From: Morchella semilibera | Taxonomy: Eukaryota > Ascomycota > Pezizomycetes > Pezizales > Morchellaceae | NCBI GenBank assembly: GCA_009192285.1 | Contig: WBVU01000005.1 | Span: 1 to 64,000 of the forward strand | DNA length: 64,000 bases | Direction: 5' to 3' | Shown: piece by piece, positions 20,448 to 60,060 of the stretch | Layout of the letters: each line of letters opens with the position of its first letter | Position numbering within the stretch: the first letter of the stretch is position 1 | Translations under genes and position numbers: made by a program | The notes under the pieces: generated by a model | Database searches by the model: none | Told to the model about the DNA's origin: nothing | What the model saw: the letters and a program-made list of their open reading frames with translations, nothing else

Positions 20448-20472
20448 CATTAGGGTTAGGGCTAGGGTTGGG
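20448..20472. repeat. interstitial telomere-like repeat
   Basis: Degenerate TTAGGG units (TTAGGGTTAGGGCTAGGGTT) immediately before the micro-retroposon at 20480. Confidence 0.85.
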
Positions 20473-20479
20473 TTCGTGC

Positions 20480-20509
20480 TTTTTTTTTTTGTTTACTTCA
20501 TTAATTACA
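20480..20509 (-). mobile_element. micro-retroposon, 20-bp core plus poly(A)
   Basis: On the minus strand it reads ATGTAATTAATGAAGTAAAC followed by 11 A. The core equals those at 44860-44889 and 48995-49023. No convincing target duplication here. Confidence 0.6.
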
Positions 20510-20690
20510 TCCAGCTTTTAGGCTATGATAATGACCCTCTCCCCTCTGGAGAGTGTCTGTATTCCTCCCTTGGGGTGTTTAAAATCCGTATCCCAAACGC
20601 ATAACGGAAGAAGTAGATATTCTTGTAATGACCAAGATTATCGTGGGTTCTACAGCGTGGGGAAATTACCTAAATGACTAATACACAAGA

Positions 20691-21687
20691 TCAGTAGTTA
20701 TAACCTTGGCCTGGGAAGTGTTTTCTGTCGTGATCAACCTTCAGCTGTGTAAACTCATAATCTTTGTATAAAATCATAGCATCTTGATCGAGTGGAGTTC
20801 TCGCGGACTCCCCCACGGCGAGAAATGCACCAACCGATGCGTGACCCATACTACTGTTACCCGTAATTGCATCGCATAAAACAAAGTGATATAACATGTC
20901 GTATATTCGGATAAGCGGACGTTTGCGCTGGCTAACCCATACTAGATTGCAATAAGGAGGTCCATAAAAAGTCATAATAGAGAAATAATAATAACACCCC
21001 CTCATCCGACGCATCTCCTCCGCTCCAGTATACAACTCAATGCAGATATGTCCACGCTGGCCTCGGAAGCCCCTCCATATTATCATGTATAGCCCTATCC
21101 CCATATGTCGTCAAATAATCTACCGCATCCCTGAAATCCACCATCTGCACATCCCCAAAATCTTTCGGATCCATGCTCAACCCTACATGCCTCATCACCA
21201 GTATAGAGTCCCCCCACCGGTGATACGCTTTCCCGCCCGTAACAGCCATAACACACTCATTGATCCCAGATCCGTCGATCATGAATTCATCGTTATAGTA
21301 TATCTCTAGCTTGTCATCCCTCCACCGCTTCCTGAGCCCATTCGCCGGGAGACTCATTGATCGTGCGACGAAGAACTTGACCTCTGGGCACTTTGGTGAC
21401 CGCCAGTGTGAGCCATCATCTTCGTCGTATTGGAGTGGACAGGCAACCCAGAGGAAACGTGGGGTGGTGGACTTCTCAGGGAAGAGGATGCCAAGGAAGT
21501 GATCGGGTGTTGGGCGGGTCTGGAAGTTTAAGTAGGTGGGGCAGAGGATCTTGTGGACTGACCAGTCAGCCTTTTGGCATGGCTTGGAACAGTAGGTCAT
21601 GTTCTTGCAGGATGCGCAACGGGTGGTGGTTGGGGTAGCGCACATTGCGCATTGATTCTTCGGGTCTGTGGGCGTAGTGGTGGGCAT
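20691..21687 (-). CDS. MYND zinc-finger protein gene with one frameshift
   Basis: From ATG 21687 the frame encodes an N-terminal MYND finger: CAMCATPTTTRCASCKNMTY, then C..CQKADW..HK..C, with the full C4-C2HC pattern at residues about 13-49. A domain with no name I know follows. The first frame stops at 21037. An overlapping frame continues from about 21070 to 20691 (HICIELYTGAEEMRRMRGCY onward). No intron boundary fits the junction near 21050-21065, so a one-base change or sequencing error is likely. MYND fingers bind proline-rich partners in transcription and methyltransferase proteins; no SET domain is visible. Joined length would be about 330 aa. Host gene, possibly a recent pseudogene. 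Confidence 0.75.
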
Positions 21688-21689
21688 CG

Positions 21690-22329
21690 TGGAGTAAGAC
21701 CTGGAGTATTGAGGGGTGGGGGTGGGGGTGGGTTCGGAGTTGAGAGGGCCTTTAGTTTGATGAGGGAAGATATAGCAGGGGAGGGCTATTTACAACGGGT
21801 TGCCTTAATCTTGGGTGCCTTAAATGCTGTTACACACAGAACGCGATAGCCGTGGCGAGGAATATTAACAGAACAAATATTCACATTGGCAAGACAGCCC
21901 GTCTGATTTGCTGGGGGGTGCCTTTTGCGGTGTCTCGGCGGTTTGGGGGGCGTGGTGTTTGGGGAAATAAATTAGTGTTCCTATGGTGCTACGGGCCTTT
22001 TTTTTCTCTTCATGATTTCATTCGTTTCTAGGTACAAGAATGTTGCGTGCAGGGACTCCCTATGGCATAAACAAAACCTAACCCCTAACAACTAACATAG
22101 GAAGCCGCCAGGAAAACAAACAAACACAAATATTAAGAGAGCAGCGAATCCGTCACGTAGGAACAAAGGAAGGAGAGAGAGAAGTAATACTATCCAAAGC
22201 AGCTTCATCCGAACTTAAAGAAGAGAGAGATGACAGCGACGTAAGAGACGATGAGGAAGAGAGCGAATAAAGTGGGCATTTGGGAACTTGATTCTTCAGA
22301 GGGAACCCCCTTCCCGTATTAGTGATGTA
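21690..22329. other. upstream of MYND gene, no further gene seen
   Basis: Holds the presumed MYND promoter on the minus strand. A short CCTAACCCCTAAC block lies at 22078-22090. Confidence 0.4.
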
Positions 22330-27361: not shown

Positions 27362-27412
27362 ACCATCCATCATTTTAATGAAGTAAACAAAAAAAAAAAC
27401 CATCCATCATTT
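27362..27412 (+). mobile_element. micro-retroposon with perfect 14-bp target duplication
   Basis: ACCATCCATCATTT occurs at 27362-27375 and 27399-27412. Between the copies lie only TAATGAAGTAAAC and a run of about 10 A. This is the signature of target-primed reverse transcription in an insert of 23 bp. Confidence 0.85.
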
Positions 27413-27418
27413 GCGACT

Positions 27419-27432
27419 AGGGTTAGGGTTAC
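27419..27432. repeat. interstitial telomere-like repeat
   Basis: TAGGGTTAGGGTTA, seven bases after the micro-retroposon. Confidence 0.85.
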
Positions 27433-27555
27433 ACACCACACGGGCAAACATAGATTGTTTATTTCTTCATTCATACTTCATGAATGTACATAGGTTAGTT
27501 ATAAACCTATATTAAGTTATAGGACTTTTTTTGATTTTTAATATTTTTTTCTCTA

Positions 27556-27726
27556 TCCCCTGGACGTATGAGACATTGGAGAATCTCTCTCATGCATTAA
27601 CGCCGAGATTCTGGGTGTAAAGAAGTCCGGGTAAGCAGAGTAGTCTCTATATTACGCCGAATGTGCCATGAAGTTCGCAGGTTTATGCATGAGAGAGATT
27701 TTCCACTGTCTCATTCGTCCAGGGGA
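27556..27726. mobile_element. foldback MITE with PiggyBac-like ends
   Basis: TCCCCTGGACGTATGAGACA and its inverse form 42-bp arms, with TA on both sides. TCCC(C/T)TGGACGnATGA is shared with the PiggyBac element at 51900-54134, which may mobilise it. Confidence 0.85.
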
Positions 27727-27844
27727 TAGGCTCTCATTGACCTATGTTTCGATTAATCCTTATATTAGTAAATGATTTTAATACATGATAATAGCTTTAC
27801 AAGAATTGATTTATTCGCTGAAAAACTCCGATACGCAGGTAGTA

Positions 27845-28425: not shown

Positions 28426-28832
28426 ACGGATTAGCTTATGTATAATTAGTAGGAGCAGAGAGCTGGGGGGGGGGTGTAGGAGTGAAGGTGTGGAGATGGA
28501 GGTGTGGAGATGGAGAAGGAAGGGCGTGATACCTCTAAGTCCCAGCCCTAACCCTGAATTGCTTACAGTTTTTGACAACTCTTTTCCTTAGTATATGATT
28601 CTCTCCAAAAGAGCATTAATTATGCCTTAACGGGCTCTAAATGGGCACCAAATATAATCTTCTTCACCCTTTTGGGTTCAATTAATGGTCTTTTCGAAAT
28701 TAAGTCTTTTTAAAACCATGCCGCAGTATTAGTGCTCAAAATCATACTTATAGAAATATCTGAACTGGCGCTAAACTATGTGTGTGGTACAGATCCGAGG
28801 TCCAAAAGGAGATCGATCTACTACATACACTA

Positions 28833-29799
28833 CCGCCCGTCCGCATATCTGTATGAGGATTATACCATGCCTACATACGTCCGAATTGACCATTATTTGA
28901 TATTAACCCGTAAAACCTTTATAAGGTCCTTGAAACGCCCTGTTTGCCTTAAGGGTTATATGTATTCAGCCTTAGTATGTATGATAATGCGATAGAGAGT
29001 TATTTTATGTGAAAAGTTGGATACGAGGTAGGCCGATTACCCTTCTAGATGGTGAATTTCGAATTAATTTGATATATTTCTCTATTTAATATGCACTTTA
29101 CTCTATACTAAAACTTTTCTATGCTTACCTGCCTGCCTGCGCGTACCTGATCTAAGTGCCTGTTCATTCGCTATAATTCGGTACTGGAATCCGTTGGATT
29201 GGGTGTTGGAATTCACTGGATTGCTACATGATGCTGAATTGTTGGATGGGGCTCCCATTTCCGCTAGATTTGCTAGATGTGGGTGCGATTGCCTGGATTG
29301 GGCGGTGAAGGCATGATTGGATGGGTTCATAGATTTGCCTGATTGGGTAATAAGATTCGTGGATTCACTGTCACGGGGTAGATCATGTCATGGACATGAT
29401 GTATTGGGCAAGGCGGGGGTGGCGTAGTGAAAGGATGAGACATGAGCCGTAGAGATGAAAGCGTAGAGGTGGTAATGGAAGCGTAGAAATGGAGGTGTAA
29501 GGTGGAAGATGAAGTGTAGAGGTGAAGGTGGTGAGGTGTAGCGAGGAAGGCGGTGCGGTTTTTATTGCTAAGCTAACCTAAGCTCAAAAAGTATGGATTT
29601 TCCTAATCCCTATTTCTATATTCACGTTTCTCCCCCAAAGACTATTAATCGAGCCCTATTCGGCCATAATTATATGCCAAATATCAGTATGATCTCCAAA
29701 CCAGGCTCAATTAAGCCCTATCTTGATATGAGGGTTATACCAGGCTTTTATATGCTATCGAGCCCTTATTTAGTCTCATACAGATATGCGGACGGGCGG
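28833..29799. mobile_element. 967-bp non-autonomous TIR element, copy 1
   Basis: CCGCCCGTCCGCATATCTGT at one end is repeated in inverse at the other (25-bp TIRs), with TA on both sides. The interior has a CACTGGATT-type minisatellite at about 29180-29340 and no open frame of note. Its sibling is at 54307-55323 in opposite orientation. Confidence 0.9.
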
Positions 29800-30013
29800 T
29801 AAAGTACATACCGTCAAAACTCGAAAGATTATCTATGCATGCAAGATCAAAATCACTAAGTATGTACATATACTAATAGCCACTTCTGAGTCCTTCCCCT
29901 AGTGGCTACAGGTAAACCTGACCCTGACCCAGAACCAGCTGCTCACATGTACCTATATCTCAAATAGGGTGGATGTCTCTGACATGCATGTATGGCCTAC
30001 CGGACCAATGTTA

Positions 30014-30320
30014 GTTTCGTACCCATCCCCTACGAGCAGCTTGCTGCTCACCGTATAGTCTGGAGCATTAACCTTCCGAAAAATATCAGGTAAAAGCCCG
30101 ACACTCTCAACTTACTATTTTGGTGGCCCAAATGAAGACTGGGGAGGCTAGCAGAACTTAATTGTTATCGAAGAGTTAATGAAGCTAAAAAAAAAACTTA
30201 TTTTCGTATGTAAACCCAGCTCCGACAGCCCTCCGACAGCCCTCCGACCCCGACAACAGCATTTTTGACCTCTGGAAGCTCTAAGCACTCCGGCAGAGAG
30301 GTCTCACCAAAGGTCGGGAC
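30014..30320. mobile_element. short relative of the 19.2-kb TIR repeat
   Basis: TTTCGTACCCATCCCC near the left, GTCTGGAGCATTA and an A-run plus CAGCTCCGACAGCCCTCCG correspond to segments of 19246-19696. The right end reads GGTCGGGAC before TA. Confidence 0.55.
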
Positions 30321-44243: not shown

Positions 44244-44859
44244 AAGATACCTGTCGATTAGAGATACTTAGTCGAGGGGAGAGAGCTTATCTCCCCCCCC
44301 CCCCTCCCCCCTCTCCTCTATCAAGAACAATTACTACTATCCTTCCTATTGTCTTCCTTCAGCCGGCCTAGGGGGGATTCGGGGAACTCGCCTTCAATAA
44401 AGTAGGGATATGACTCTGCCTCGGGCTTGTCATCCGACGTTGCCGAAGCTCTTTCGGGCGTCTTAGGGACAGGGAGTTTGAGGCTTTGGGGGTTGGATTT
44501 CGCCCATCACGGTAGTGGGGACCAATGGATATGTTGTGCCGGAGGTCCTTGACCTATAGCAACTGCGGAAAGGTCGGGTATGCGGCCGGCCTCTAGGCCA
44601 CATGATGCATATGCATATGGGAGGTCTTGACGTCTCGGGAACCATCTGAGTTTCGAGTGATGAAATAATATGAGTTCTAGTCTTGTTGATTCCGCAGCTC
44701 CAGCATCCATATGATTAACAAGCGAATCCAGTGGAATCAGGTAAAGTCTTAGAATGTACGTGGCTCTCCAGGCCCACCGCGCCTGCCTCTTTGACGCTGC
44801 AGCACTAAACTCGCGGTCCAAAGGCGGACACACATCTACTTGCACCCAACCTATATAGC
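44244..44859. other. intergenic, no recognised gene
   Basis: C12 run at 44293-44304. A minus frame at 44507-44845 has no identifiable feature. Confidence 0.35.
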
Positions 44860-44901
44860 CTTTTCTTTTTATTTACTTCATTAATTACAAACCTACATAG
44901 C
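44848..44901 (-). mobile_element. micro-retroposon with 12-bp target duplication
   Basis: On the minus strand TGTAATTAATGAAGTAAAT plus an A-rich tail (44860-44889), flanked by AACCTATATAGC (44848-44859) and AACCTACATAGC (44890-44901), one mismatch. Confidence 0.8.
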
Positions 44902-48072: not shown

Positions 48073-48981
48073 ATTTGTGCCTGCTATGGTTGAATATCAG
48101 ATATGCGGTATGATATCGAAATGGTACTCTTTGCCGGATTTACTAGATTTCACGCCCGAGTGTTTATGTTGGCAGACGAGCGTATATCACTGTACAGAAA
48201 TCATGTACTCCCTGAATATCGGATCTATATCAATTGCGCTTGAGCAGTATGAAGCACGGATGGGTGGTGGTAATTGCGCTTGTAGCACGGTTATCGAGTG
48301 CAGCATGGTGAATCACTCGGTAACCGTCTCATTTCAGTCCTTCCTTTTATTTATCTATTTATACTTCATACTGCTTTCAGTCCTTTCTAAGTTTTGTTAT
48401 TTAATCTTTCTAGAAGAAGAATTAGGCGGTAAGGGTCTTGATTATTTCGTTGACTACATTGCTTTTAGCGTCCTTTAAATACAAAATCATCTAGTATACG
48501 TGTTCTTCGAACTTAACTATTATTGTCTCCTTATCCTCGACTGGCTAACGTGTCCTCCAGGCTCTACTGTGACATATACCGACAATGCCTCTAGGCAGTA
48601 TGACCGCATGGCCTCATAAACAATTAGTTAACAAAAGTAATCGTGGTTTCCTCCGGAGTCAACACCCAGCACTAAGCCTTTGTCATGGGATGACCGGAGA
48701 GGAAGGCTGGTACTTTAATGTCCCTCGCACTTGGGCCAGACCGCAGCCAGCCTATTCAGGCCGCATATAGTGCACCCCGATGCGCACAGAGCGTGCCTTT
48801 CTAGGTCAGATATGATGGGCGCTGCGAGCAGGTGGTTGGCTCATGATCACCTTACTTGTACCCACCACGTTAAATATTCCTGCCAGGCCTTTACCTTGAC
48901 ATCTCGTTGCAAGTTGAGGGCATTCAATATATTATCCCTATTTCATACAAGCTAAACTATCCACTCAACACACTTTGTCGC
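48073..48981. other. intergenic, no gene seen
   Basis: No supported frame. A plus frame up to 48478 is hydrophobic but unconvincing. Confidence 0.35.
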
Positions 48982-49035
48982 TCATCTGGTAGCGCATGTA
49001 ATTAATGAAGTAAACAAAAAAAATCATTGGTAGCG
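48982..49035 (+). mobile_element. micro-retroposon with 12-13 bp target duplication
   Basis: CATGTAATTAATGAAGTAAAC plus 8 A (48995-49023), flanked by TCATCTGGTAGCG (48982-48994) and TCATTGGTAGCG (49024-49035), which differ by one C. Confidence 0.8.
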
Positions 49036-51899: not shown

Positions 51900-54134
51900 T
51901 CCCTTGGACGGATGAAACTTGTAAATTCGCGACCCGGACCGTGCCCCACTTGGAGCACTTGTTCTAACTACTTTTGGTAATCACATGATATCAGATTCTA
52001 GTCCGTTGGGTTGAAGAATACTGGTTTATTTGAGGGATCCGGAGCGTGGATCATTAACTTTATGGTATTCTACAAAGCAGGTCCGACACAAAACGAAAGA
52101 GCAGAGTTGACAAAAGAAATATGATGTGGGAGCACGCTTTCCCTTTAATCCCTCTTTTCTAAATTTTAATCTGCAGCGGTCACACTCTCTTCTCTTTGCA
52201 AGCCGGAGTTTGGTGTGTGTAAGGACAACAGCCGGGCCCGCTTCTGTTTTACTTATGGTAGGAGGTGGAAGGTCAAGTACACCATATGTCTTACTGTAGC
52301 GAATACCAGTAGTCTTCCTATGATAGCGACGTGTTGGGCGGTTTGGCTTAGCCCAACGTCCTAGCAATTGACTAGCCAACATAAGCCGGAAATCTTTATG
52401 TGTTGGTAATGTTTTTTCTATTCTTGATAGGCGGTATAGGATAAAACAATTCACAGTAATGGTATCCAGAAACCAAAAAAAGAATGGTAGCCAGTTGCGT
52501 CTTGCGGCCCGGGTCAATTGAGTGAAAAAAATAACTACGGTATTGATCGGCAATGTCAACCCCACCTTTATGGAGGTTGTAGTCATCAATTATAGCCGGA
52601 ATTGGTATATTAATCGTATGTTTATCTTGAAAAGCTGGTTTGATCAAGCGACCGCTGGTACTTGTGATCCGGGGTTGTTTTCTGATTCGATGAACTTTTT
52701 CTAGAAGATCGTGAATAGTTGATAGCATATGAACGTGGTTGTTATCCTGCCATTGCATCGCGAGAACCATTCCATTACTACCAGTAACTGCACCACCAGA
52801 TACTGTATTCCACGGTATGTCTTTGGCCGAATTATTGAGGTCAATCGGAAATCGTCCTTCTTGTACTCTGGCTGTTCCACATGCACCAATCCTTAAGTTC
52901 TCATGCAGTTTCATGTACAATTGAACAGTACTAAAGAGATTATCCATGAATATAACAAAGTCGGAGGTATGGTACGGAAGTGACTGCTCAGCAAGCTGAT
53001 AAACTACCGCAACAGTAGGTGCTGTAATACCGATGTTGTCCCGATAAGTTGTAGAAAGCTCTGCAATCCCTTTGACTCGAGAATGAAATCGCCAGTTCAT
53101 TGTATAACCATGATCGCATATAGCAAATACTTTATAGCCTTCAGTAATTGGCTTATTAGGCATGCGTACTGTATGTTTACTTCTTCCACCAAATCGTATC
53201 ATCATCTCATCGACTGTTACTGTAGTAGAAGGATGATAGTATTTCAAACAACTGTCCCGTAGTTTGCTGCTAAGTGGTTCAAGTTTATTCCACCAATCGG
53301 TTGTACTACTAGTACTCTTGGTTGAGGAAAAACCTTCATCGTTCACGATATGGTCTGATACGGGAGACAGGTGTAAGTAGCGTTTGATTTGAAAAAACCG
53401 ATTATTCGACATTGCGTTGGAAATAGGTTCCCTCCACAAGTATCGTGACTGTGATAGCCGTCCACCAACATGTAATTTCATTCCGGCACTTCTTCTCCAT
53501 ATATCTGAAGGGGTTTTGCATCGGAAAACTCCCATAGCAATCAAGATTGCCAGAAACACTCGTAGTTCTGAGGCAGTCACAGGTCTCCACCTCCTCCCGT
53601 ACCTAACTTGACCTATTCCATCTGTAACTTGGGCCGCACCCTTTAGAATTGCATAGGCGTTGGTATTTATTACTATTGATTCCATAACCTCCTCGCTCCA
53701 GAAGAGCTGAAAGATCTCACTCGCATCCAAACCCTATTGAATTATTAGTTTCCCTTTTCTAAAAACCGGAATTATTCAATAATTACCTCTTCAATTAATG
53801 CCTCAGCTTCATGATAGCTCCGTGGTAGAGGACAATAAATTGGCTCTTGTGCCTGTTGCGCAGCACTATCTCTCAGAGCAGTTGTGGCCCCAGACATCCC
53901 TACTCTTTTTGCTGCACGCCGAGAGCCTCTTCTAACATCTTTTGATTTAGATGCCCGGCCCTGATGTAGTACGCCCAAAGGTTTTCTGATGGTTGAATTC
54001 GGCATACTTCAGTAATGTAGCAAGCTTTCATGATCCGATCCACAGAAAGCTGTTGCCGTTTGCTAGTTGAAGTCCATCCAGCAGGGATGGCACGGTCCAG
54101 GTCGCGAATTTTCAAATTTCATCCGTCCAAGGGA
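51900..54134 (-). mobile_element. PiggyBac-type transposon, near complete (2235 bp)
   Basis: Ends TCCCTTGGACGGATGAAA and inverse, 46-bp TIRs with three mismatches (inner part AATTCGCGACC(C/T)GGACCG). The flanking dinucleotide is TA on both sides (51898-51899, 54135-54136), not the TTAA usual for PiggyBac. Encloses one transposase gene on the minus strand. Confidence 0.9.
52026..54005 (-). CDS. PiggyBac-type transposase (DDE_Tnp_1_7), one frameshift
   Basis: Exon 1 is 54005-53787 (73 aa). A 53-bp intron (GTAATT, branch ACTAAT, AG at 53734) leads to exon 2 from 53733. The PiggyBac core follows: GLDASEIFQLFWSEEVMESI, FLAILIAMGVFRCKTPSDIW, VTVDEMMIRFGGRSKHTVRM (first Asp), FVIFMDNLFSTVQLYMKL (second Asp), YNLHKGGVDIADQYRSYF (third Asp). 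After that the frame is shifted by one base at a run of seven A (52525-52531, plus strand). In the next frame RRNWLPFFFWFLDTITVNCF continues to a Cys-rich zinc finger (CDRCRLKF, CQLCSFVLCRTCF) and stop at 52026. All three catalytic Asp are present. The run could be a mutation, a read error or slippage site. Confidence 0.9.
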
Positions 54135-54306
54135 TACAATTGCTCAGAGTGGCAGATGGTGATTAGAGATGGAGGGCTTGGTTGGTGTGTGGCGGCGGAA
54201 CCGGCAAACACATCTAATACACTCAGAAATTGAGCTTTGTGACCATCCGAAAAAGATCGATAGTATTTTTTGCCTGATTAGCCAAGCAAGATGAGTACAT
54301 ACTTTA

Positions 54307-55323
54307 CCGCCCGTCCGCATATCTGTATGAGACTAAATAAGGGCTCGATAGCATATAAAAGCCTGGTATAACTCTCATATCAAGATAGGGCTTAATTGAA
54401 CCTGGTTTGGAGATCATACTGATATTTGGCACATAATTATGGCCGAATAGGGCTCGATTAATAGTCTTTGGGGGAGAAACGTGAATATAGAAATAGGGAT
54501 TAGGAAAATCCATAAGCTTTTGAGGGTTAGGGTTAGGACTTAGCAGATAACAAACACGCACGCCTTCCGTCTCTACACCTCCACACCTTCACCTCTACAC
54601 CTTCATCTCCACCTTTACACCTCCATCTCTACGGCTTCATTCTCACCTCTACGGCTTCATCTCTACGGCTTCATGTCTCTGCCTTCATCTACGCCACCCC
54701 CGCTGCAATTGAACATCATTGTCCAGACATGAGCTACCCGGTGGAAGCAGTGAATCCAGCGAATCTATTACCCAATCAGGCAAATCTATTGGGACCAGCA
54801 TCCAATCCAGTCGCTTCAGCGCCCAATCCAGCAAATCCAGCACCCAATCTAGCGAATCTAGCGAATTGAGCACCCAATCCAACGAATTCAGCATCCAATG
54901 TAGCGAATCCAGTGAATCCAACACCCAATCCAACGGATTCAGTACCGAATCTAGTAGCGAATGAAGCAGGCACTGTAGTCAGGTACGGCAGGCAGGCGGG
55001 CAGGTAAGCAGGTAGGAAAAGTTGCTAGTATAGAGTAAATGTGCATATTAAATAGAGAAATAATCAAGAGTTTAATTTGCGAAATTCACCTATGCTAGAA
55101 GGGGTGTGAATACTGGCCTACCTGCGTATCCAGACTTTTCACCGAATAAAATAACCCTCTTATCGGCATTATCATACATACTAAGGCTGAATACATATAA
55201 CCCTTAAGGCAAACAGGGCGTTTCAAGGACCTTATAAAGGTTTTACGGGTTAATATCAAATAATGGTTAATTCGGACGTATGTAGGCATGGTATAATCCT
55301 CATACAGATATGCGGACGGGCGG
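54307..55323. mobile_element. 1017-bp non-autonomous TIR element, copy 2
   Basis: Inverted sibling of 28833-29799 with the same CCGCCCGTCCGCATATCTGT ends and TA flanks. The middle (about 54750-54970) is a minisatellite of CCAGCGAATCCAGCACCCAA units. It carries AGGGTTAGGGTTAGGA at 54526, where copy 1 has only CTAACCTAAG. Confidence 0.9.
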
Positions 55324-56685
55324 TAGTGTAATAAGAAGATAGCATTTCTTCCCTCAAATGCATGACCAGGAGTGGTGTAGACCGCTTCGAGTATACCTAG
55401 AATTTGTGCTACCTTGTGAAGGGTAAATGTCTGCATCCGGGAGAATTTTATCTCATAATCCTGTTGAGGAATGCCCTCGTATAATTCATCTACAGAATCT
55501 ACACTCATTTTCGCGGGACAGTGATGCGCTAAGAACCATTTGTGATTTCAGTACTATATATTTCTATTTGCCACCCCACTCGCATATTGTCTCCTCGCCA
55601 GTCAACCACAAATGGTCATGATATTAACTCAAAAATGACACTCCCGGCAACCATCATTGAGTCCGGCAAATTGTAGATTTCAGATATCGTTAGTTGGCAA
55701 GTACTCTCTCTTGCATTGGAAAAGTGTTAATATGCTAGCACCTTAGCTTGTTTAGTTTCGTCGTGTGATAGTATTGGTGACACATTTAGACTACGTCTTC
55801 AGCATTGTATAAACACAAAATACTGTCGAGATTGTAGTGGGCACCCGCATCTCCGGGGTTGTTCGCACGTATAGATGAACATGCATAGGTATACTTTCTT
55901 TGCCCAGCCGCGGACCTTCGTACCCGCCCACTACCGGAGGGGCTGGAGCTAAATCGTTCCGAGTTTTGGTAAGATTTTTGCGGATGTATGAATTAAGAAC
56001 CCTCGGACGTCAGAGACGCTGCTAGCGGAGGTCGGGGGCTGTCGGGGAGCTGTCAGAGCCCACTTTACATACAAGGAATAAAGTTCCTTTTTAGCTCTCA
56101 ACATGGGAACTAAGGTTCATTCTAACCCCGATATCATATTTCGGCCCTAACGTCACATTTTGGGACTCCGACATCACAATTCAGAGCCCGATATCACATT
56201 TCGGAGACCGACATGATCGGGACCGCGATTGACGCCGCGGTCAAGGCCGTCGGTGGCGGGCCCAGCGCGAGAGTAGGTAAAGCGTTAGGGCACAAGTCCA
56301 AGAACCAAAGGAAGTATGTACTGTAGTATCAAGGGCGCTGACTGGATACTAGGGAGGATAGTATCGCATGTTACAGGGTGTGATCTTGTGTCAGTGACGG
56401 CATAGGCGCAGAGTAGGGGCGGGAACATGGTTAGCGTCAGTTTTACGGGCTATCATGATTTCCTTCTTATCCTGGAATTAACAAGGTTTCTACTCTTTCT
56501 GTTTTGGTTAAATGATGGATGATGAATGTTTCTGTGTTTCTGTTTTGTTAACTTATGGATTAGCAATGTTTCTGCGCGCGCTCACCCGAAATTAAGTTAT
56601 TTTTTTGCATCCGAGACTTGAATCCAGGCGTTGTTGAGATTATATATACCGGGAGTATATACATGCGGGGGCTTAAATGCTTGAA
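55324..56685. other. intergenic with degraded satellite
   Basis: GATATCACATTTCGGAGACC-type units at about 56130-56215 belong to the 19.2-kb satellite family. A GGAGCTGTCAGAGCCC block near 56047 matches 30.2 kb. No gene seen. Confidence 0.4.
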
Positions 56686-56920: not shown

Positions 56921-58271
56921 GACTCCAATGATGTCATCTCACCCGTCCTGAACCTCAGGTTGATACTCCGCGCTCTCCACCATTATATATTTGGAATAGT
57001 GTTATAGGCGAGGTACTTATGACGACATGCCCTTTGGAGCGTGGCCAACATGACACAAAAACGAAACGACCGTGGCGGTAAGAAAACGTGGCTCTGCACC
57101 AGGTTACCTTTATTACCCTCAATAGATTTTCTCATGCTACAGGATATCCCTTGAACCGCCGGTAAATGCTGTCCCCCAGCTAAGGAATAGAACATATTAC
57201 TATAACTCCTTGGCTAATTAATTGCCAAGTCTGTCAAAAGAGACCCCGGGCCCATCAGCGTAAAGGGTCTAATACTGGCACCTGTTAGCAGATCCTGACA
57301 TTTGATAATTCATCCCCCATGCAAGCTTTCAATCTTTATCATTGGGGGCGGGTTTAACATGGACACCTTAAGGGATAGCCAGCTATATAGTTATATGGTA
57401 AAAGACTACAACTTCAAAATGTCAAGACCCTCCCCGTGGCCATGGCCAGGGGATCGTTTTCTTGGCATGCAACAGCCTTATCACATATGCGAATGCGGAG
57501 CCTCACGTCACTACACTGAGCTTGTGTATGTTTGGGTGAGGAGGTGGAGTGCTAATATTCCCTATACTTTCTGACAAATGTTATATCATCTTGTTGGAGG
57601 GGGTGGTGGGATATATGGTGGTGTGGTTTGGAGTCGCAAAGCTTGATGAAGTATTTAATTCCAAAGGTTGAGCAATAATTACTTGTATGGATGATATTAA
57701 GAGGTAGCGAGGTTCTGACCTCACTCTCTCAACCAAGTATGATTTCTTAATAGCCAACTATGCAATGAGTCTTTGCCACCGGCCTATAATCGTCTCTACT
57801 GGTATCTTTATGTGGATTACTCCAATTAACACCTTCTGGTCAATCCAGATTCTCCCCTGATGCACCCACAGGTCTCTCTGACTCTTGCTGCAAACATCAG
57901 CATCCTCCCCCATCCATTTCCGGCGGCACTTTCCCGCAACTCATCCTTTGGCCTTGAGATACGGTACGCACGACCACACACCACACACCATGCAGCAGCA
58001 GCAGCGCCGGGCATGCACCGGGAGCTCAGCCTCGTGATGAGATGCCCACCCGTGATGTCGTCGGGGGCGCTGATGGTGCCATAAAGTCCCAGGGTAGGTA
58101 GAGAGATGTCGATGTTATGGATGTATTCACATAGAGTAGTAGTACTCTATCCGTTGATTCCTCTGCCCCCCCCCCCCCCCAAGCCTGGCACCAGCCCCCG
58201 CCACAATGTCACGCCTCATCTCCCCTACACACGAGCCGCTACCCGCACTCGACAAATATCACGAGCAACTA
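56921..58271. other. intergenic, no gene seen
   Basis: No supported frame. A 15-base C run lies at 58166-58180, just outside the pogo element. Confidence 0.4.
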
Positions 58272-60058
58272 CCGCAAAATCTCAGTTTATACGGACGGTT
58301 GCCAAGGGTTGGGCTTGCAGGTAATCAACCCTTTTGGCCAATAATTGTGTTGATCTTTGCGGCTGAAGTTGTGATGATATAGGAGTTGCGTGAGGTGTAT
58401 TCCTAGCCTCTACAACAATCAACCCACGATACCCAACCATGATGTCCACTAAAGATCCGCTGCAAAACCTTTCCAAAAGGGATAGAAAGAAGCCCGGCTC
58501 AAAGCCAAAACTCATCAGAGAGCGAATGCCACTTGATGTCTCAACCTTAAAACCTACAAGGAAAGTGCGAAGAATGTACAGCCGTGAAACCAAAATCCGA
58601 GTTCTGAAATTTCACTTTCTTTATAAATTACCAGTGGAAGGAAGACTTGACCAGTACCGGACGCCTACACTTGCGGAGACCTCTACTATGTTTTTGATTC
58701 CTGAGAGTACCGTGCAACAATGGACCAAACAGGAAGGTACTATTATACAGCAACACTCTGGCAGCTTTACAGCCGGTTCACAATCATTTGTTTGTAAATG
58801 GCCGGAAATGGAGGAGAAATTGTATAGTTTATTCTTAGCAAAGCGTGCTGAGGGAAAACTAGTGAGGAGAGGATGGTTTAGACGACATGCAAAAAGGCTA
58901 TTTTTGGAGTCCTACCCAAATTCTTCCCTATTTGTTTTTTCCGCTGGTTGGTTCAACAAATTTCTTGTCCGTCACTATATTTCAATCAGATTCACGACCA
59001 ACAAAGCCCAAAAAATTCCTGATGATTACCGGAAATTGATTATCAACTGGTTAAGGTTCAACAGAAGGGTGTCACAGCCCCAGAACTTTTGGGAGAGAGT
59101 AGGACTCATGGGAGACATTGGGAGGTACCTCCTATCCAATATTGGTAATTTGGACGAAACACCTATACCATTCGAATATCTTGACGGCAGAACCTACGAT
59201 ACAACTGGATTACGTACGATATGGGCAAAGACTGCTAAAAGTGGCTGGGATAAACGGCAGGCTTCTCTAATCTTAATGGTATATGCAGACGGAATACCAC
59301 GAGTAAAGCCTAAGATCGTCTTCCATGGAACTACAGGAGAGCAGATTCTTAAGAAGGAACAGCACCTATATGACCCAAGGGTGACGGTAGAGTTCAACAA
59401 AACTGCCTACAACAATGAAAAAATATTTATCAAACAAATCGAAGAAGAGATAGCTCCTGCCTTCGAAGGCCGTCCCTCCCTTTTTGCAGTAGATGCAGCT
59501 GCATTTCACAAAAGCGAAAATGTTCTAGCAGTATTTAAAAAATATTTAATCACCCCATCCATGATACCTAGCGGTTGTACCAGTCTTGTCCAACCTTTGG
59601 ATATATCTATCAATTTCCCTTTTAAGGAAATGTTACGAGAATGTGTGGAGGAATATATTGAAGAAGCAGAGAATAAGCCAGGTAGAAAAAGCAAGTGGAG
59701 TGTTGGGGATAGGCGTATCATGACAACTATTTGTGTTGGACGGATTTGGGAGAGATTCTGTACAGAAAAAAAAGGGATCATAAAGCAGGCTTTCCGTAAT
59801 GTGGGGTTATCCTTACCCTTAGATGGGAGTGGCGATCATGAGTTAAACATCAAAGGATTTACACACAAGGACTCGGAGTTGGAGATAGGAGACTGGTCAA
59901 AAGATTATGATAGTTCTGTAATGGTAGATCATAGACTTGTCAGTGAGGCAGACGACGAGTCCTCAGCTGTAGAATACCATTGAGTACGGGCCGGGTGGCT
60001 CTGTCTCACCTGCAAGCCCAACCCTTGGCAACCGTCCGTATAAACTGAGATTTTGCGG
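58272..60058 (+). mobile_element. intact pogo-type transposon, perfect 51-bp TIRs
   Basis: Element of 1787 bp between TA dinucleotides at 58270-58271 and 60059-60060. The first 51 bases (CCGCAAAATCTCAGTTTATA onward to TTGCAGGT) are repeated without a mismatch in inverse at 60008-60058. It holds one uninterrupted transposase gene. Identical ends and an open frame suggest recent insertion. Confidence 0.95.
58439..59983 (+). CDS. pogo-type DDE transposase, full length (514 aa)
   Basis: Intron-less frame of 514 residues starting at the ATGATG at 58439. Residues about 40-100 form a Psq-like helix-turn-helix (YSRETKIRVLKFHF, PESTVQQWTKQEG). Residues about 118-190 form a CENP-B-type DNA-binding domain (EGKLVRRGWFRRHAKRLF, FSAGWFNKFLVRH). 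The DDE domain follows with NLDET (Asp239), FAVDAAAFHKS (Asp352) and SLVQPLDIS (Asp388), spacing DD35D. The basic N-terminus (KRDRKKPGSKPK) may be a nuclear signal. It cuts and pastes at TA targets. All catalytic residues and DNA-binding parts are present, so it may still be active and may drive the MITE at 5.3 kb. Confidence 0.95.
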   Translation: MMSTKDPLQNLSKRDRKKPGSKPKLIRERMPLDVSTLKPTRKVRRMYSRETKIRVLKFHFLYKLPVEGRLDQYRTPTLAETSTMFLIPESTVQQWTKQEGTIIQQHSGSFTAGSQSFVCKWPEMEEKLYSLFLAKRAEGKLVRRGWFRRHAKRLFLESYPNSSLFVFSAGWFNKFLVRHYISIRFTTNKAQKIPDDYRKLIINWLRFNRRVSQPQNFWERVGLMGDIGRYLLSNIGNLDETPIPFEYLDGRTYDTTGLRTIWAKTAKSGWDKRQASLILMVYADGIPRVKPKIVFHGTTGEQILKKEQHLYDPRVTVEFNKTAYNNEKIFIKQIEEEIAPAFEGRPSLFAVDAAAFHKSENVLAVFKKYLITPSMIPSGCTSLVQPLDISINFPFKEMLRECVEEYIEEAENKPGRKSKWSVGDRRIMTTICVGRIWERFCTEKKGIIKQAFRNVGLSLPLDGSGDHELNIKGFTHKDSELEIGDWSKDYDSSVMVDHRLVSEADDESSAVEYH

Positions 60059-60060
60059 TA

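Follow-up and report, generated by a model that had tools for sequence, protein, structure and literature searches.

Four sites in the 64 kb of Morchella semilibera DNA analysed here (the window) carry a common 3' core followed by an A-rich tail, and at three of the four, site 1 being the exception, duplications of variable length abut both ends of the insert. We consider, with a probability of about 0.7, that these inserts arose separately, each by target-primed retroposition from one and the same RNA 3' end, carried out by machinery of the LINE type. Retroposition as such appears likely, and we infer an RNA intermediate, LINE machinery and a source RNA longer than its copies.

The core reads AATGAAGTAAA(C/T), then A's. 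A search of the window for the core including its tail (AATGAAGTAAAYAAAAAA, with up to two mismatches allowed) returned four copies, three of them exact and one with a single mismatch, against 0.01 expected from 100 dinucleotide-preserving shuffles, which bears out the first-pass annotation of four window sites with a common 3' core plus poly(A). The copies lie at 20485(-), 27377(+), 44865(-) and 49004(+), and are referred to here as sites 1, 2, 3 and 4 (Table 1). Sites 1, 3 and 4 reach further 5' than the core as it was originally described, sites 1 and 4 both carrying ATGTAATTAATGAAGTAAAC and site 3 carrying TGTAATTAATGAAGTAAAT. An A-rich tail follows one constant 3' end at all four sites, the tail having been part of the search pattern, and its variants are A8, A10-11, A11 and the interrupted AAAAAGAAAAG. 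The target sequences are unrelated to one another, and as there is no A run at the insertion points, the tail must have arrived with the insert; at site 3, an A8 run lies 20 bases upstream of the duplication. In this respect the inserts differ from Zorro3 of Candida albicans, which is likewise fungal, target-primed and A-tailed but which inserts into poly-A tracts and has 18 of 19 mapped 5' ends that are full length or longer (PMC1965478).

Table 1. Inserts with the common 3' core, their target duplications and nearby telomere-like tracts (positions in the window)
Feature	Positions	Strand	Remark	Random places as good (of 4000)
Site 1: ATGTAATTAATGAAGTAAAC + A11	20480..20510	-	no target duplication found	1631
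Telomere-like tract, 10 bases from the tail of site 1	20449..20469
Site 2 left target duplication ACCATCCATCATTT	27362..27375	+	
Site 2 insert TAATGAAGTAAAC + 10 A	27376..27398	+	an 11th A is assignable to tail or duplication
Site 2 right target duplication	27399..27412	+	14/14 identical	0
Telomere-like tract, 4 bases from the right duplication of site 2	27417..27432
Site 3 duplication copy after the tail, GCTATATAGGTT	44848..44859	-
Site 3 insert TGTAATTAATGAAGTAAAT + AAAAAGAAAAG	44860..44889	-
Site 3 duplication copy before the insert, GCTATGTAGGTT	44890..44901	-	11/12 identical	23
Site 4 left duplication TCATCTGGTAGCG	48982..48994	+
Site 4 insert CATGTAATTAATGAAGTAAAC + A8	48995..49023	+
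Site 4 right duplication TCATTGGTAGCG	49024..49035	+	one gap relative to the left copy	17

The duplication at site 2 is genuine beyond doubt. Between 27362 and 27412 the window reads ACCATCCATCATTT, TAATGAAGTAAAC, an A run and ACCATCCATCATTT again, and the 23-bp insert with a perfect 14-bp target duplication that had been annotated there is exactly what is found, the two 14-mers being identical. Among exact direct repeats of at least 11 bases whose starts are 18–109 apart, moreover, only those of site 2 have a pure A tail between them. A MITE-like imperfect inverted repeat is present just downstream, at 27553–27729.

Duplications were scored by gapped alignment of abutting repeats, and the main null consisted of 4000 random places outside tandem repeats, at which the search had the same freedom as at the sites themselves. 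The sites had been chosen by core and tail and not by their duplications, with the exception of site 2, which was the starting point of the first-pass annotation. The scores were 14 at site 2, 9.5 at site 3, 10 at site 4 and 4 at site 1; taken singly, sites 3 and 4 correspond to chances of about 0.006 and 0.004, and site 1 is at background. A coarser null, reached by 0, 13, 9 and 2052 of 6000 places for sites 2, 3, 4 and 1, flattered sites 3 and 4, and a null in which tandem repeats were kept gave 6, 13, 12 and 605 of 1500 in the same order. There are 15 uninterrupted A/T runs of at least 8. Those behind the core at sites 2, 4 and 1 score 14, 10 and 4, and none of the remaining 12 exceeds 6.5; site 3, with its interrupted tail, is not among the 15.

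That an AT-rich word simply happens to lie beside A runs and accidental direct repeats might be argued from the single-site values of sites 3 and 4, and also from a look-alike at 30176(+), TTAATGAAGCTAA followed by A's, which was rejected as a fifth copy since it is part of another repeat and not an insert (the other copy of that repeat, at 56006–56096 and 75% identical, reads GTTGAGAGCTAAAAAGG at this place). Against such an origin stand the four core copies where 0.01 were expected, the 14 of 14 match at site 2, equalled at none of the random places, and the A/T runs elsewhere, which have no such repeats, and we therefore regard it as highly improbable.

The earlier description of three target duplications of 12–14 bp holds without qualification for site 2; those at the other two sites are imperfect, matching at 11 of 12 positions at site 3 and pairing 13 against 12 bases with one gap at site 4. 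Decay is uneven, as site 2 is intact, site 4 has a gap in its duplication only, and site 3 combines a mismatch in the duplication with one altered base in the core and an interrupted tail, which suggests that sites 2, 3 and 4 arose separately and differ in age. When 36 A runs of at least 7 were scanned without gaps for repeats up to 300 bp upstream, site 2 alone was supported (it scored 14, an unrelated run at 52475 scored 9, site 4 scored 8 and site 1 scored 7, whereas 103 mismatched pairings used as controls reached 11 at most). In a wide scan for A-rich-tailed stretches that lie between direct repeats and measure up to 1.5 kb, tandem repeats included and with a cut-off that misses sites 3 and 4, there was no excess over T-rich-tailed controls (31 of each), and thus no general wave of A-tailed insertions shows in the window.

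In the retroposition model favoured here, the RNA 3' end would be ...ATGTAATTAATGAAGTAAAC followed by poly(A), belonging either to the LINE's own transcript or to another with the same tail, such that source transcripts would end ...TGTAATTAATGAAGTAAAC-poly(A). Synthesis of cDNA would start at a bottom-strand nick with priming on the A tail, reverse transcription would stop after only 13–21 non-A nucleotides, and the cDNA would then be joined to the upstream flank, with 12–14 bp of target becoming duplicated. The first-pass annotation had likewise seen the footprint of LINE-type target-primed insertion, and the 3' end, the A tail and the abutting 12–14 bp duplications at three sites are in keeping with this. 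Site 1 is not: no duplication lies beside its insert, and none above background was found up to 9 kb upstream, which points toward what that annotation had itself named as its refutation, copies without duplications.

The three inserts that bear duplications contain 13, 19 and 21 non-A bases, and if truncation lengths are assumed to be exponentially distributed, the probability of three such short inserts is 0.0072 for a mean of 100 nt and 7.5e-5 for a mean of 500 nt. They are hard to square with ordinary LINE truncation, which is an unlikely account of them, and these low probabilities imply that copying stops unusually early or that the template is short. Like the 5'-truncated fungal LINE copies Ylli of Yarrowia lipolytica and MGL of Magnaporthe, the inserts keep the 3' end, have a poly(A) tract and would be truncated at the 5' end. 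However, the 104 Ylli fragments range in length from 30 bp to 1 kb, with no target duplications identified (PMC5014426), and the shortest MGL portion reported in chimeras is 230 nt, with direct repeats of 10–20 bp where these could be found (PMC2104539); at 13–21 nt plus A's, the inserts here fall below both of these lengths. They also resemble SINEs of the Mg-SINE type, described as short and mobilised via a LINE-like 3' end (PMC2104539), but differ from these in being too short to hold a pol III promoter. Neither such a promoter nor a 5' part derived from an RNA gene is present in inserts of 13–21 nt plus tail, and in the window as a whole no Rfam family matched at gathering score and no tRNA gene was found. 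No longer copy with the same 3' end was found within the window, and no reverse transcriptase domain was detected by Pfam in its 113 stop-to-stop ORFs of at least 95 aa (20 + 93). A literature search on very short retroposons, on fungal SINEs and on the core as text gave nothing matching among the papers listed, which does not imply absence from print.

The inserts of sites 3 and 4 begin, and the homology of site 1 ends, within 2 bases of one another. That the homology of three sites ends near the same 5' point might mean either that reverse transcription stops there or that the whole unit measures about 20 nt. The first possibility can be put as a specific form of the retroposition model, in which a hairpin near the 3' end of a longer LINE, SINE or mRNA brings the reverse transcriptase to a halt some 20 nt from the tail and site 1 is a longer copy that includes the hairpin. 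In the predicted fold of 100 nt at site 1, a hairpin ends directly before TAATTAATG, 1–3 bases from the insert starts of sites 3 and 4, and template switching by the fungal LINE MGL has been proposed to arise from hairpins (PMC2104539). However, the fold does not reach significance (z -1.62, with equally good folds in 14 of 200 shuffles), and since site 1 has no duplication above background within the 9 kb upstream, its status as a longer copy cannot be demonstrated; we consider this form possible but doubtful.

The second possibility is that of a genuine tiny unit, either an RNA of about 20 nt or a tailed small RNA, whose 5' end would be fixed near ATGTAATT and which LINE machinery would copy in full. 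The nearly identical homology limit at sites 1, 3 and 4 (ATGTAATT at sites 1 and 4, TGTAATT at site 3) and the lack of a longer copy in the window are what such a unit would be expected to leave. Yet the 5' ends do vary, as the insert at site 2 starts at TAATG, 6–7 nt further in than at the other sites, and the clustering of three ends is weak evidence if all truncations are shorter than about 30 nt. Such a unit would also have no room for a promoter, so its transcription would presumably depend on a host locus, and the small number of copies, only four, tells against it just as it tells against the retroposition reading in general. We thus think it unlikely that the sites represent a retroposon family of about 20 nt plus tail, consisting of full-length copies of a tiny polyadenylated RNA whose end is all that the LINE machinery needs.

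Short interstitial TTAGGG-like tracts, 16 in all, are spread over the window from 1282 to 62342, with a mean of one per 4 kb. One such telomere-like tract is 10 bases from site 1 and another is 4 bases from site 2, and in random placements at least two of four sites fall within 10 bases of a tract with a frequency of 0.0022 (0.00245 within 15 bp), in a test chosen post hoc. L1 prefers TT/AAAA as its target. It is conceivable that scraps of cDNA were captured at staggered breaks near the tracts, by end joining and not through a nicking endonuclease, and this would be consistent with the proximity of sites 1 and 2, with the missing duplication at site 1 and with targets unlike the L1 preference. 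But the nearest tract is 3146 bases away from site 3 and 1666 bases away from site 4, the proximity test was conceived after the sites had been seen, and one RNA end has been used four times with a near-constant duplication length, all of which makes such capture quite improbable. Telomere-associated fungal LINEs, the FoTeRs, do exist (PMC12857005), and the proximity of sites 1 and 2 to the tracts is best treated as a lead only.

Several other candidates and elements were encountered. A MYND-finger ORF (21040–21789, minus strand), to which NCBIfam gave no match, ends 535 bases upstream of site 1 on the same strand; the idea that a retrocopied MYND-finger gene ends at site 1 was rejected, the repeat in question being a 12-mer with one mismatch, 1.2 kb away, which is no better than background (its score of 9 is equalled or exceeded at 43 of 200 random places). 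In viral contigs, four loci with the core had no A tail and eight loci with core and tail had no abutting duplication by eye, and all were taken as chance; a 22-base pattern had no match in prokaryote genome contigs. At 48232–48388, inserts of 29 and 32 bp each lie between exact 11-bp direct repeats (AATTGCGCTTG; TTTCAGTCCTT), and both carry the 12-mer AGCAGTATGAAG in opposite orientation (arms 48243–48254 and 48364–48375, the latter sharing one base with its repeat); this pair looks like templated filler DNA. The window also holds a 1-kb element in two inverted copies (28826–29806 and 54300–55330, 88% identical), near whose ends stands a perfect inverted repeat of 27 bp. Its DNA-transposon proteins comprise DDE_1, a hAT dimerisation region and DDE_Tnp_1_7. 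One transposase ORF, 52399–53733(-), has DDE_Tnp_1_7 (piggyBac type), and another, 58394–59980(+), has HTH_Tnp_Tc5 and DDE_1 and lies between 53-bp perfect inverted repeats (58270–58322 and 60008–60060), with no overlap between this ORF and the first of the two repeats. Two transposase proteins of the window and one 29-base inverted-repeat pattern had no confirmed relative in viral contigs.

Were the tiny family to prove real, four copies per 64 kb could amount to thousands per typical fungal genome, unseen by repeat finders. More generally, if inserts such as these are common, target-primed reverse transcription would often stop or be resolved almost at once, leaving footprints shorter than repeat annotation detects, and these would provide a direct readout both of the 3'-end sequence that the machinery needs and of when cDNA synthesis ends.
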